Assembly: GCF_000973725.1 (NCBI RefSeq)
Contig: NZ_CP009621.1
Span: 3,004,001 to 3,068,000, forward strand
DNA: 64,000 nt
Source of the DNA: Pontibacter korlensis
GTDB lineage: Bacteria > Bacteroidota > Bacteroidia > Cytophagales > Hymenobacteraceae
Reading direction: 5' to 3'
This document shows positions 1 to 2,772 of this stretch, one piece after another (positions within the stretch are counted from its first letter, which is position 1; each line of letters starts with the position of its first letter). Under the pieces are notes generated by a model. The model ran no database searches, was not told the DNA's origin, and was given only the letters and a program-made list of their open reading frames with translations. Made by a program: the position numbers and the translations under genes.

Positions 1-621
1 CTCCAGGTGCTCCAGCAGGCTTGGCCCCTGGTACCATGGCATAGTCAGCTCAGAGCTTTCCACAATGTTATCGCCTTTAAGGGCACTAACAGGTATAAAG
101 GTGATGTCCTTCGACTTCAGCTTTTTAGCAAACTGCTTGTAATCCTCTACAATCTGGTTGTAAACCTGCTCGTCGTAACCAACCAGGTCCATCTTATTGA
201 TACAGATTACCAGGTGCGGGATACCCAGCAGCGTAGAGATAATAGAGTGACGGCGTGTCTGCTCTTGAACTCCTTTGCGTGCATCTACCAGAATGATGGA
301 CAGGTTTGAGTTAGACGCACCCGTAACCATGTTTCTAGTATACTGAATGTGGCCTGGCGCATCAGCAATAATGAATTTGCGCTTCTCTGTAGAGAAATAC
401 TTATAAGCCACGTCGATAGTGATGCCTTGCTCACGCTCTGCCTTTAGGCCATCTGTCAGCAAAGAAAGGTCTATCTGTCCATCCTCGTTCAGGCGGCCAG
501 AGCTTTCGATAGCTTCCAGTTGGTCTGCAAATATCTGCTTTGTGTCGTAGAGCAGGCGACCGATTAATGTGCTCTTGCCGTCGTCTACGTTGCCGGCAGT
601 TATAAATCGTAGTATGTCCAT
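1..621 (-). CDS. cysN: Sulfate adenylyltransferase subunit 1 (GTPase subunit), 3' part outside window
   Basis: Regulatory GTPase subunit of ATP sulfurylase, which with CysD makes adenosine 5'-phosphosulfate from sulfate and ATP. Only the N-terminal 207 codons are present; the gene runs off the left edge. The translation begins [17 protein letters not shown], with the P-loop GNVDDGKS at residues 10-17, a switch I region with [13 protein letters not shown], the G3 motif DAPGH and the G4 motif NKMD, as in elongation-factor-like GTPases. Its ATG lies one base past the cysD stop codon, so the two are almost certainly translationally coupled in the cysHDN operon. Whether an APS-kinase domain (CysNC fusion) follows cannot be seen. 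Confidence 0.95.
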
Positions 622-622
622 C

Positions 623-1531
623 TTAAAAGTATCCTCCTTTCTTACGGTCTTCCATCGCTGTTTCCGACAACTTGTCGTCGATGCGGGTAGCTCCACGCTC
701 ACTAATCTTTGACTCCAGAATCTCGGCAATTACGGCGTCGATATCATATGCTACCGACTCCACAGCTGCTGTACAGGTCATATCGCCTACAGTACGGAAA
801 CGTACCTGCTTCTTCACCACCACATCGTCCGGCTCCTGGTAAATGAAGTCAGACCATGCCATCAGTTTTCCATCACGCACCAGGCACTCGCGCTCGTGGG
901 TGTAGTAGATATGTGGTAATGCGATACCTTCGCGCTTAATGTAGTTCCATACATCAAGCTCTGTCCAGTTAGAGATGGGGAACACACGCACGTTTTCGCC
1001 TTTGTTGATGCGGCCGTTGTAGATGTTCCAAAGCTCTGGACGCTGGCGCTTCGGGTCCCACTGACCAAATTCGTCTCGTACAGAGAAAATACGCTCTTTG
1101 GCACGGGCTTTCTCCTCATCGCGACGTGCTCCACCAATGCAGGCATCAAAACCGAATTCCTCTATAGTCTCCAGCAGGGTGTGTGTCTGCAGCGCATTGC
1201 GGCTGGCATAACGGCCTGTTGGCTCTGATAGGTTCTTGCGCTTGATCGTATCCTCTACATTGCGAACGATCAGCTTTTCACCAAGGCGCTCGGCTAGCTC
1301 ATCGCGGTAACGAATGGCCTCAGGGAAGTTGTGGCCAGTGTCGATGTGTACCAGCGGGAATGGGAATTTACCTGGTCTAAATGCCTTCTCAGCCAGTCGT
1401 ACCAGTGTAATTGAATCTTTACCGCCCGAAAAAAGCAGGGCTGGCTTTTCGAACTGCCCCGCTACCTCACGCATAATGTGGATGGCTTCTGCCTCCAGCT
1501 GGTCGAGGTAATCCAGATATCTCTTGTCCAT
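623..1531 (-). CDS. cysD: Sulfate adenylyltransferase subunit 2
   Basis: Catalytic subunit of the heterodimeric ATP sulfurylase; it adenylates sulfate to APS in the cytoplasm. The 302-residue length is normal for CysD. The PP-loop ATP-binding motif SGGKDS is at residues 35-40, and the PAPS-reductase-like fold signatures ([38 protein letters not shown]) are all present. It lies between cysH (56-base gap) and cysN (1-base gap) on the same strand, so it is the middle gene of an operon controlled from the leader upstream of cysH. Nothing is truncated or unusual. Confidence 0.97.
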
Positions 1532-1587: not shown

Positions 1588-2307
1588 TTATCTTGCGTGC
1601 AAGCCGCACTCTTTTTTCGAGTTGTCTTCCCACCACCAACGGCCGGCACGGAAGTCTTCTCCTTCCAAAATGGCACGTGTACAAGGTGCGCAACCTATAC
1701 TTACAAATCCTTTGTCGTGCAGCGGGTTGTAAGGGATGTGCAGTGCTTTAACAGCAGCACGTACCTCATCCAAAGTAAAATCAAGCAGCGGGTTATACTT
1801 GATGAGCTGGTGGCCTTCGTCCCATTCCAGTAACTGTAGGTCCTGGCGTGCACCAGACTGCTCGGCACGGATACCTGTTACCCAAATCTGTACACCTTCC
1901 AGGGCACGGTTTAGCGGCTCCACCTTACGTATGTAGCAGCACTGCTTGCGATCATCGATAGAGTTATAAAAGCTCATCGGACCTTTCTCGTTCACCAGCT
2001 GCTCTACAGCCTCGTGCTTCGGGAAGTATACTTCTATCTTTTTGCCATAGTGGTTGTTCGTCTTGTGCAACAGTGTATAACTCTCGTTAAAGAGGCGACC
2101 TGTATCAAGTGTAAACACCCTAATTGGCAGGTTATTTTCAAATATATAATGTGTGATGAGCTGATCTTCTATGCCAAGGCTGGAGGAAAAGGCTATGCTG
2201 CCATTAAATTCCTGAGCCAGCCGGCGCAGTCCTTCCTCAGCCGTAAGGCCAGAAAGAGCGGCACGTAAACTATCTAGTTTAGCCAGCAATTCTTGTGATA
2301 GATCCAT
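1588..2307 (-). CDS. cysH: Assimilatory adenylyl-sulfate (APS) reductase
   Basis: Reduces APS to sulfite using thioredoxin-type electrons. The 239-residue protein has a PP-loop region with SSSLGIEDQ and the LDTGRLF segment, and the C-terminal catalytic motif ECGLH with the nucleophilic Cys234. Two further cysteine pairs, Cys123-Cys124 and Cys206-x-x-Cys209, form the CC...CxxC set that binds a [4Fe-4S] cluster in APS-specific enzymes. This argues for APS rather than PAPS as substrate and fits the absence of a visible APS kinase gene. It is the first gene of the cysHDN operon, 183 bases after the stop of a cysteine-rich leader peptide and downstream of a SAM riboswitch. The ATG at 2307 matches the family N-terminus. 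Confidence 0.95.
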   Translation of the reverse strand: MDLSQELLAKLDSLRAALSGLTAEEGLRRLAQEFNGSIAFSSSLGIEDQLITHYIFENNLPIRVFTLDTGRLFNESYTLLHKTNNHYGKKIEVYFPKHEAVEQLVNEKGPMSFYNSIDDRKQCCYIRKVEPLNRALEGVQIWVTGIRAEQSGARQDLQLLEWDEGHQLIKYNPLLDFTLDEVRAAVKALHIPYNPLHDKGFVSIGCAPCTRAILEGEDFRAGRWWWEDNSKKECGLHAR

Positions 2308-2490
2308 GGAATATATATTAATCTCTTTGAAAACTAAGTTTGTAACTAGGGTTTCCAGTTTAGAGCCATAACTATGCCACTAAGCTCAAGGAGCATGAAG
2401 TGTGCCTGCTTATATCCGGTAAAGTAAAAAGAAGAAAGCGGCTAAAAAAGACGTCGTAAAACTGGAATGGTATAGGTGAGAAGTGCACGC

Positions 2491-2619
2491 TTAGCACATA
2501 CAACAACAGCAACAGCAATTCTGCTGCAGAAGAGCAGATGTTGGGACAAAGGCAACTGATGCGGTGGCTGTACCACTGCTTGCCATACGTGTAGCTGATG
2601 TAATGTTGTAGGTTTGCAT
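2491..2619 (-). CDS. Poly-cysteine leader peptide upstream of cysH (42 aa)
   Basis: A short ORF not previously listed in this window. It reads ATG at 2619 to TAA at 2491 and ends QQNCCCCCCMC-stop. The six consecutive Cys codons are TGC TGT TGC TGT TGT TGT, followed by ATG, TGC and TAA. The rest is Ser/Thr/Ala-rich with no domain. It starts nine bases after the 3' arm of the SAM riboswitch P1 helix and ends 183 bases before cysH, the first gene of a sulfate-assimilation operon that supplies cysteine. Such codon runs are the hallmark of ribosome-mediated attenuation peptides, and polycysteine upstream ORFs are known before cysteine genes in mycobacteria. A second in-frame ATG at codon 12 (2586) could be the real start. 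The regulatory role is inferred; the peptide sequence is directly seen. Confidence 0.75.
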   Translation of the reverse strand: MQTYNITSATRMASSGTATASVAFVPTSALLQQNCCCCCCMC

Positions 2620-2628
2620 TGCTTTATC

Positions 2629-2730
2629 AATTTATATGCCCCGGCTGCCGGGCTAGGAATTGGCACCTTACCATTTTGGAGGTTGCCAGAGGGTCTCAGA
2701 GCCTAGTCTCTCGCCTCTTCTTTATAAATT
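2629..2730 (-). promoter_or_regulatory. SAM-I (S-box) class riboswitch
   Basis: On the minus strand the leader contains the conserved S-box blocks: GAGAGACTAGGCTCTGAGAC, then GGCAACC, then AAGGTGCCAATTCC. P1 is a perfect 8-bp helix, AATTTATA (2730-2723) with TATAAATT (2636-2629). P3 pairs ACC with GGT. P4 is CCCGG-CAG-CCGGG (2652-2640). The diagnostic pseudoknot between the P2 loop and the P3-P4 junction is intact as CTAGG (2706-2702) with CCTAG (2657-2653). The element lies just downstream of a TAATTTTG promoter and upstream of the poly-Cys ORF and cysH. No intrinsic terminator follows, so control may act on translation of the leader ORF or through Rho; that mechanism is inference. Confidence 0.85.
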
Positions 2731-2764: not shown

Positions 2765-2772
2765 CAAAATTA
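2765..2772 (-). promoter_or_regulatory. -7 promoter element of the cysHDN operon
   Basis: TAATTTTG matches the Bacteroidota -7 consensus TAnnTTTG. It sits about 35 bases upstream of the riboswitch P1 helix, which places the transcription start near 2758. The -33 region is weak: only a GTTA lies about 19 bases upstream. The call rests on position plus consensus. Confidence 0.6.

Follow-up and report, generated by a model that had tools for sequence, protein, structure and literature searches.

The minus strand at the left end of the window (the whole stretch of Pontibacter korlensis DNA analysed here, 64,000 nt) carries cysH, cysD and the start of a gene that we take to be cysN, preceded by a short leader ORF, a SAM-I riboswitch and a promoter-like box (Table 1). 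The encoded CysH is 90% identical to CysH of Pontibacter mangrovi. The leader ORF, found exactly where the first-pass annotation had placed it, runs from an ATG to a TAA stop (2619-2491, minus strand) and encodes the 42-residue product MQTYNITSATRMASSGTATASVAFVPTSALLQQNCCCCCCMC. Its six Cys codons occupy 2517-2500 on the same strand, and the exact 27-nt pattern of the Cys run has a single occurrence in the 5.46-Mb genome. The spacer from the leader stop to cysH (2308-2490, minus strand) measures 183 nt, as had been reported, and is presumed to be the place of the regulatory decision. On the other side, the SAM-I riboswitch ends 9 nt before the leader ATG. The first-pass annotation had recognized a Cys-codon leader, which proves to be conserved, and was incomplete in that it missed the riboswitch directly upstream.

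Table 1 Features at the start of the cysHDN operon in the window
Feature	Position	Strand	Basis
Promoter-like TAATTTTG, a Bacteroidota TAnnTTTG box about 35 nt upstream of the riboswitch	2765..2772	minus	Read by eye
SAM-I riboswitch aptamer (S box leader)	2629..2730	minus	RF00162, 77.0 bits (gathering 44.4), full length 1-108
3' strand of P1, ATATAAATT, the A/T-rich stretch just upstream of the leader ORF start	2629..2637	minus	Comparison of P1 ends
Leader ORF (uORF), 42 codons, ending QQNCCCCCCMC and stop	2491..2619	minus	Relatives compared
Control codons: six Cys, Met, Cys, right before the stop	2494..2517	minus	Sequence
Pyrimidine-rich, G-poor spacer from the leader ORF to cysH, lacking a terminator-like hairpin	2308..2490	minus	Sequence and hairpin scan
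cysH, phosphoadenylyl-sulfate (adenylyl-sulfate) reductase	1588..2307	minus	NF002537, 267.9 bits (cut-off 154); TIGR02055 above cut-off
cysD, sulfate adenylyltransferase small subunit	623..1531	minus	NF003587, 447.5 bits (cut-off 195)
Start of presumed cysN, continuing past the left window edge	1..621	minus	Reading of the translated sequence

TAnnTTTG is given as the Bacteroidota promoter consensus in the available part of PMC9723704, and promoters of this type lie outside the scope of the sigma-70 promoter scan. Given the box at 2772-2765 (minus strand), the riboswitch, the leader ORF and cysHDN are probably carried on one transcript. Elsewhere in the window, a fluoride riboswitch (RF01734, 53.4 bits) lies at 28854-28790 on the minus strand.

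Recurrence of the riboswitch and Cys-codon leader

Behind five of the six SAM riboswitches in the whole P. korlensis genome lies, 7-9 nt away, an ORF with Cys codons at its end. The pair stands upstream of cysH, of a nitrite/sulfite-reductase gene (Pfam PF01077 and PF03460) that has a second Cys-run ORF as well, of metY (TIGR01326 above cut-off), where the leader ends in VMRTSMCVMQSCCC and a stop, of an ATP-grasp gene (PF08443) and of a gene for an NhaC-type transporter (PF03553). The sixth riboswitch precedes metH (PF02574) and has no Cys-run ORF behind it. The genome also contains rho (669.7 bits).

To survey the genus, we examined all 120 SAM riboswitches of 31 genomes, counting ORFs that start no more than 12 nt after the riboswitch and hold a Cys run. 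Such a leader ORF lies behind 82 of the 120, and its presence follows the class of the downstream gene: cysH 15/15, sulfite-reductase-like genes 14/14, NhaC-like transporters 13/13, ATP-grasp genes 6/6, metY 26/28, receptor/peptidase genes 5/5 and unclassified genes 3/5. It was found behind none of the 31 metH and none of the 3 metB-like riboswitches; SAM riboswitches with and without the leader thus coexist in the same genomes and serve as built-in controls. These 34, together with L166, L167, L173 and L205, make up the 38 leaders lacking the run; among the sulfur genes, the exceptions are L173 (metY), in which the run is lost, and L205, which has just CYCC. Gene classes in this survey and in that of the order are regular-expression calls, with one member of several classes checked by Pfam/NCBIfam; the class called 'TonB/SusC-like' proved mixed, holding a TonB receptor in L226 and an M14 peptidase in L271, and L199, which the script left unclassified, resembles metY. 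Within this set, itself chosen for a start within 12 nt, 78 of the 82 Cys-run ORFs begin 6-10 nt past the riboswitch. When leaders were instead picked for a run of at least four TGY triplets with ATGs ignored, an ATG proved to lie no more than 18 nt past the riboswitch in all 66.

Several genus loci carry further elements. The riboswitch with its Cys-run leader also precedes a receptor-like gene with a TonB plug domain (L226), an M14 carboxypeptidase gene (L271) and five genes of receptor/peptidase type by likeness of their starts (L235, L251, L220, L270 and L278), a hint that sulfur compounds or peptides may be taken up. Half of the sulfite-reductase leaders (7/14; L007, L272, L273, L274, L275, L276 and L279) hold a second Cys-run ORF that ends in MRAC or MCAC and starts 107-153 nt after the stop of the first, an arrangement that suggests a relay.

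A different Cys mini-leader, MCCCC(C), was seen before an iscS-like cysteine desulfurase gene, named by its DNAATT motif. In P. korlensis (L119; contig C1, around 1083811, minus strand) it starts at or just past the stop of the upstream gene, presumably glmM-like, and lies some 100-110 nt from the desulfurase gene; the riboswitch search of the genome placed no SAM riboswitch at this site. Mini-leaders of this type occur at 7 of 30 loci examined (L405, L409, L413, L414, L416, L418, which is the P. korlensis locus again, and L423). The residues past their Cys runs vary among loci, and all seven are followed by a strong terminator-like hairpin that has a T-tract.

A second sample was assembled from named cysH loci, being the best 80 of 137 found with CysH, 13 of them from Pontibacter. 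All 13 Pontibacter loci have a SAM riboswitch upstream of cysH and all 13 have a Cys-run ORF, 12 within 450 nt of cysH as detected by the script and that of L049 at -563. The first-pass annotation had held that its reading would fall if close relatives lacked the run or broke its frame; they keep both. Beyond Pontibacter, a Cys-run ORF precedes cysH at just 9 of 67 named loci, all in MAGs labelled Chitinophagaceae, Hydrotalea, Puia, Flavipsychrobacter or Bacteroidetes, with endings such as SKCCCCCCCC (L086) and YICCCCC (L088) before the stop. These nine, and L087 with its two Cys codons only, gave zero Rfam family matches, and the script found no Cys-run ORF at the other 58 named cysH loci, Spirosoma and Larkinella included. 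Three kinds of control region around cysH (reverse strand, downstream and far upstream), some shortened or absent at contig ends, each gave 0/80. By eye, TAGAC/GTCTA-like motifs near the promoter region of Chitinophagaceae-type cysH leaders (L086, L087, L088, L091, L096, L103, L109 and L117) look like a regulator binding site besides the Cys leader.

For the order, we drew on 59 genomes and examined the best 89 of 106 further riboswitches from genomes other than that of P. korlensis, counting ORFs that start within 14 nt of the riboswitch and have three Cys in their last 16 residues. Such a near Cys-run ORF was present at 28 of the 89 riboswitches, under ten of 22 family labels including the window's own, with 18/26 for metY and 2/5 for cysH. 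None was found near riboswitches of metH (0/25), metB/C-like genes (0/5) or metX (0/4); a metB-like gene that the script left unclassified (L352) does have a Cys-run leader. At L357 and L368 a Cys-run ORF lies 82 and 69 nt past the riboswitch, outside the 28 counted. Three further riboswitches of the order, without a near Cys-run ORF, precede a cysteine-desulfurase-like gene (L374, L381 and L388).

Of 71 places listed outside the order we examined 46, including 20 from the same class, and found no near Cys-run ORF (0/46); in a single cysH leader (L445), such an ORF lies 112 nt past the riboswitch. A metY leader from a different order of the class (L436, genome G252) has a Met-rich ORF 8 nt past the SAM riboswitch, its sequence including SMRMRMPMSCFSYMCA, and is perhaps a methionine version of the device. 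A phylum-wide pattern of five Cys codons and a stop matched in 175 of 395 genomes and was kept out of the counts because many matches resemble CTG/TGC repeats and the pattern also permits TGG; it pointed to sites beside riboswitches in G005, G011 and G016, which were examined afterwards. A query with the leader peptide gave matches in 107 of 200 genomes at E of at most 1, mostly noise, with homologues among the top handful and some true ones at E above 0.01.

Reading frame, codons and composition of the leader

That the Cys run exceeds chance, as first proposed from the window, is borne out by the genus: when the letters of the 82 leader ORFs were shuffled 200 times each, three consecutive in-frame Cys codons appeared in 19 of 16,400 sequences. 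A search blind to frame found a run of at least four TGY within 260 nt after the riboswitch in 66 of the 120 genus leaders, and across all 120 the control strings were found 0 times (reverse complement) and once (pattern read backwards). The first ATG is in frame with the run and open to it in 62 of the 66, and in 22/22 in the order sample; the other four (L197, L253, L265 and L278) have an earlier out-of-frame ATG followed by a second that opens the Cys-run ORF. Run length varies, the longest run per leader ranging from 2 to 10 Cys, and the run touches the stop codon in 44/82 leaders and lies at most two codons from it in 73/82.

Which other codons stand at the end of the ORF depends on the gene behind it. 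Composition and Met counts were taken on the 79 of 82 leaders with a recognized gene class, and at least two Met among the last 16 residues occur in 25/26 metY leaders versus 2/53 leaders of the other classes. The suggestion that a Met codon within the run could add sensitivity to methionine supply accordingly divides by gene: it is weak for cysH, the case for which it was made, with Met in the last 16 residues of 8/15 leaders, and strong for metY (26/26). The product of metY makes homocysteine on the route to methionine, so Met codons in its leaders are expected if codons match the pathway.

Upstream of the run, the ORF bodies show little amino-acid constraint, yet remain open and G-poor. Across 23 close pairs of leader ORFs, substitutions at codon positions 1, 2 and 3 number 144, 154 and 169, and the synonymous share is 0.33 against 0.26 expected. 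G makes up 13.5% of four-fold sites in leader ORFs versus 34.7% in genes. The skew of C over G is positive in 78/79 leader bodies (mean 0.27) and 76/79 spacers (mean 0.19); for gene starts the figures are 53/79 (mean 0.03), and for metH leaders 10/29. Taken together, the comparisons indicate that the leader is kept as a reading frame, not as a protein. A C-rich, G-poor leader is suggestive of Rho loading on ribosome-free RNA and fits RNA kept unstructured as well.

A proposed two-input leader and its output step

Comparison across genomes establishes the pairing of riboswitch and ORF, their geometry, their restriction to gene classes, the conservation of frame and codons and the G-poor RNA. 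Because the pair recurs before several sulfur genes in relatives, a single RNA seems to convey two sulfur signals to the cell, and a conserved two-sensor leader is, from the sequence comparisons, very likely. More specifically, we are fairly confident that the locus has a two-input cis-regulatory leader in which a SAM-I riboswitch and a Cys-codon ORF would together gate sulfur genes.

P1 of the riboswitch lies directly upstream of the leader start codon. In riboswitches with a leader ORF, P1 consists mostly of A-U pairs (ATTTATA/TATAAAT), and ends of the window type recur, the 12 commonest end pairs covering 73 of these 82 riboswitches; the P1 ends of all 31 metH riboswitches differ from them. 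Three metB-like genes of the genus have their own ATG 10 nt past the riboswitch, where the others have the leader ATG, a spacing that suggests a translational platform. As the distance is the same whether the ATG belongs to a metB-like gene or to a leader, the simplest reading is that SAM would block initiation of the gene or the leader. In the order sample, the five metB/C-like genes begin 62-160 nt past the riboswitch, not 10 nt, so the shared geometry rests on the three genus loci.

We propose that, since P1 adjoins the leader start, SAM binding would hide the A/U-rich initiation region and stop leader translation. At high SAM the leader would therefore go untranslated and the genes would be off. 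At low SAM the leader would be translated, and the ribosome would meet the Cys run, at metY also the Met codons, at the end of the ORF. With ample charged tRNA-Cys, it would read to the stop and the genes would stay low; with scarce charged tRNA-Cys (or tRNA-Met), it would stall at the run, and a ribosome held on the Cys codons would turn the genes on. Full expression of the sulfur-assimilation genes would thus be expected only when both signals report that sulfur is short. From the conserved features we infer SAM binding, stalling, the output step and the direction in which the genes would respond.

Three output steps come into consideration. Rho-dependent termination on C-rich, G-poor leader RNA unprotected by a ribosome is the one we favour, though about evenly poised between right and wrong; masking of the gene's start region has a smaller though real chance; and an intrinsic terminator is unlikely. 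The masking step belongs to a reading, again possible but short of probable, in which both sensors operate and the output is translational: the Cys run or nearby leader RNA would pair with the region in which the following ORF starts, and stalling of a ribosome would free that start, a scheme already proposed for mycobacterial polycysteine small ORFs. In sulfite-reductase leaders, complementarity between Cys run and spacer beats the shuffle mean in 14/14 (mean z -1.81, 30 shuffles each), and the second Cys-run ORF in seven of these leaders is relay-like. At L117 (Chitinophagaceae), ACAACAAC near the cysH start can pair by eye with the run UGUUGUUGU, and the available part of PMC13236596 describes the cysteine genes of M. 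smegmatis as under translation attenuation. Sulfite-reductase leaders are, however, the one class in which the complementarity is clear; it is weaker for cysH (mean z -0.82), receptor/peptidase (-0.57) and transporter leaders (-0.56), and without excess for metY (-0.2) and ATP-grasp leaders (0.03). Being confined to some classes, it reveals no single common refolding scheme, and Cys-run pairing to the spacer was rejected as a general rule.

Ribosome-mediated transcription attenuation of the classical type, in which the spacer would hold an intrinsic terminator and the riboswitch would act separately, strikes us as rather improbable. Cys codons close to the stop would suit such a leader, 7 of the 15 terminator-like matches fall in sulfite-reductase spacers, and the different mini-leader before iscS in the same genomes has its strong terminator-like hairpin. 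Among the 78 leaders with spacers of 60-450 nt, however, those 15 matches compare with a mean of 8.3 (range 2-16) over ten mononucleotide-shuffle sets, and the 183-nt spacer of the window has none. RNAalifold consensus structures of 26 metY and 11 NhaC leaders likewise contain no terminator, only weak elements (-8.7 and -2.5, respectively); a small mid-spacer hairpin with compensating changes is common to metY leaders by eye. The idea that stalling refolds the segment before cysH, taken as a classical switch to an intrinsic terminator, is therefore unsupported.

Other readings would deny the ORF a sensing role. It might encode a functional Cys-rich small protein, binding thiols or metals and merely controlled by the riboswitch: the Cys run is the best-conserved part of the ORF, and the available part of PMC12810186 describes a conserved small ORF under riboswitch control in M. 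tuberculosis. We consider this very unlikely, as the body has little amino-acid constraint with G lowered at synonymous sites, Met enrichment follows the downstream gene and the longest run may hold anything from 2 to 10 Cys. The run might also be an artefact of chance or repeats, produced by reading a stretch of CAA/CAG trinucleotides in a single frame, and the P. korlensis genome does contain six other 5-Cys strings, left out here, that are antisense to a gene (L120 and L121) or have no same-strand ORF of at least 90 aa within 900 nt (L118, L122, L123 and L132). Such an origin is rejected on cross-genome conservation, shuffles and control regions, and we give it practically no weight: the frame-blind search recovered 66 leaders, the cysH control regions gave nothing and the Cys codons are mixed, with 150 TGC and 254 TGT in the genus leaders.

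Returning to the two-input leader, we lean, with less assurance, towards a wider reading: a widespread, undescribed class of Cytophagales leaders in which a codon-sensing ORF would be the direct client of a SAM-I riboswitch. SAM would set ribosome entry, charging of tRNA-Cys (at metY, of tRNA-Met) would set the stopping point, and Rho or start-site masking would read out the result. Within one genome this would amount to an AND gate across the regulon, acting on about five sulfur operons, each leader having control codons that suit its pathway and an ORF body selected as G-poor RNA rather than as peptide. Counter-evidence to the two-input leader comes from L173 and L205, from the order sample, where a near Cys-run ORF is absent from 8/26 metY and 3/5 cysH leaders and the metB-like L352 has a Cys-run leader, and from the 9/67 share among non-Pontibacter cysH loci.

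Relation to known leader systems

To our knowledge, RNA-level control of amino-acid genes has been little studied in Bacteroidota. For F. psychrophilum, leader-peptide attenuation of amino-acid operons has been inferred in general terms, according to the available part of PMC9723704. Full-text literature searches, covering top-ranked titles only and with most subscription journals outside their coverage, returned no report of a SAM riboswitch coupled to a leader of Cys codons or of Cys leaders in Bacteroidota. Both halves of the device are thus of known kinds; new, as far as we have seen, are their combination, its use across the order and the coding by Met and Cys. If the reading is true, it describes an RNA gate, evolved in nature, whose two inputs are a metabolite riboswitch and codon sensing by the ribosome and which is used many times within one regulon. 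It also supplies a sequence rule for that regulon (a riboswitch, 6-10 nt, an ATG and a Cys-run ORF), and this rule proposes sulfur-related roles for the ATP-grasp protein, the NhaC-type transporter, the TonB-type receptor and the carboxypeptidase.

Canestrari and colleagues reportedly characterized mycobacterial polycysteine leaderless small ORFs as cysteine-responsive attenuators in 2020. Leader peptides that have Cys runs and lack terminators have been predicted in Mycobacterium, Propionibacterium and Bifidobacterium, with a guess at Rho (PMC1262725, available part). The Pontibacter leader resembles these actinobacterial ones in that the ORF is short, has its Cys codons close to the stop, stands before sulfur or cysteine genes and is followed by no conserved terminator, with Rho suggested for both (PMC1262725, same part). 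Unlike them, called leaderless and without mention of a riboswitch in the text at hand, the Pontibacter ORF stands behind a SAM-I riboswitch, and its metY versions add Met codons. The 102-nt riboswitch that precedes the ORF in the predicted transcript argues against a leaderless state here. Ahead of cysS in Rhodobacterales, uORFC-8-2 has tandem Cys codons and a predicted ribosome-mediated attenuation (PMC8632094, available part). It differs from the Pontibacter leader in having two Cys codons and an intrinsic terminator, in belonging to Alphaproteobacteria and, as far as the accessible description goes, in lacking mention of a riboswitch.

In E. coli tnaC, attenuation is Rho-dependent and the control point lies at the end of the leader ORF. 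The Pontibacter leader would share both this position of the control point and, as the proposed effector, Rho. The available part of PMC8429421 has tnaC sense free Trp by an arrest peptide; as the body of the leader peptide is not conserved in Pontibacter, codon starvation is the likelier signal there.

Control of a small ORF by a riboswitch also has parallels in M. tuberculosis. At Mbox/pe20 a riboswitch controls a uORF with Rho termination (PMC12810186, available part), the role of that uORF being left open in the abstract, and B12 riboswitches interact with uORFs at ppe2 and metE (PMC11260477, available part). The Pontibacter riboswitch would likewise control translation of a small ORF and thereby the operon, and premature termination is reported in the accessible text on both M. 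tuberculosis cases. These riboswitches are of other classes, and that text mentions no run of control codons; in Pontibacter, by contrast, the uORF would be a second sensor. The same logic is found in the tandems of SAM riboswitch and T-box(Met) upstream of metX and metY, which form 'NOT A AND B' gates, as described in the available part of PMC9481103. There, too, expression is reached at low SAM and high uncharged tRNA. The sensor of tRNA in those tandems is, according to the same portion of text, the T-box RNA; in the Pontibacter leader, this part would be taken by a ribosome translating Cys (and Met) codons.
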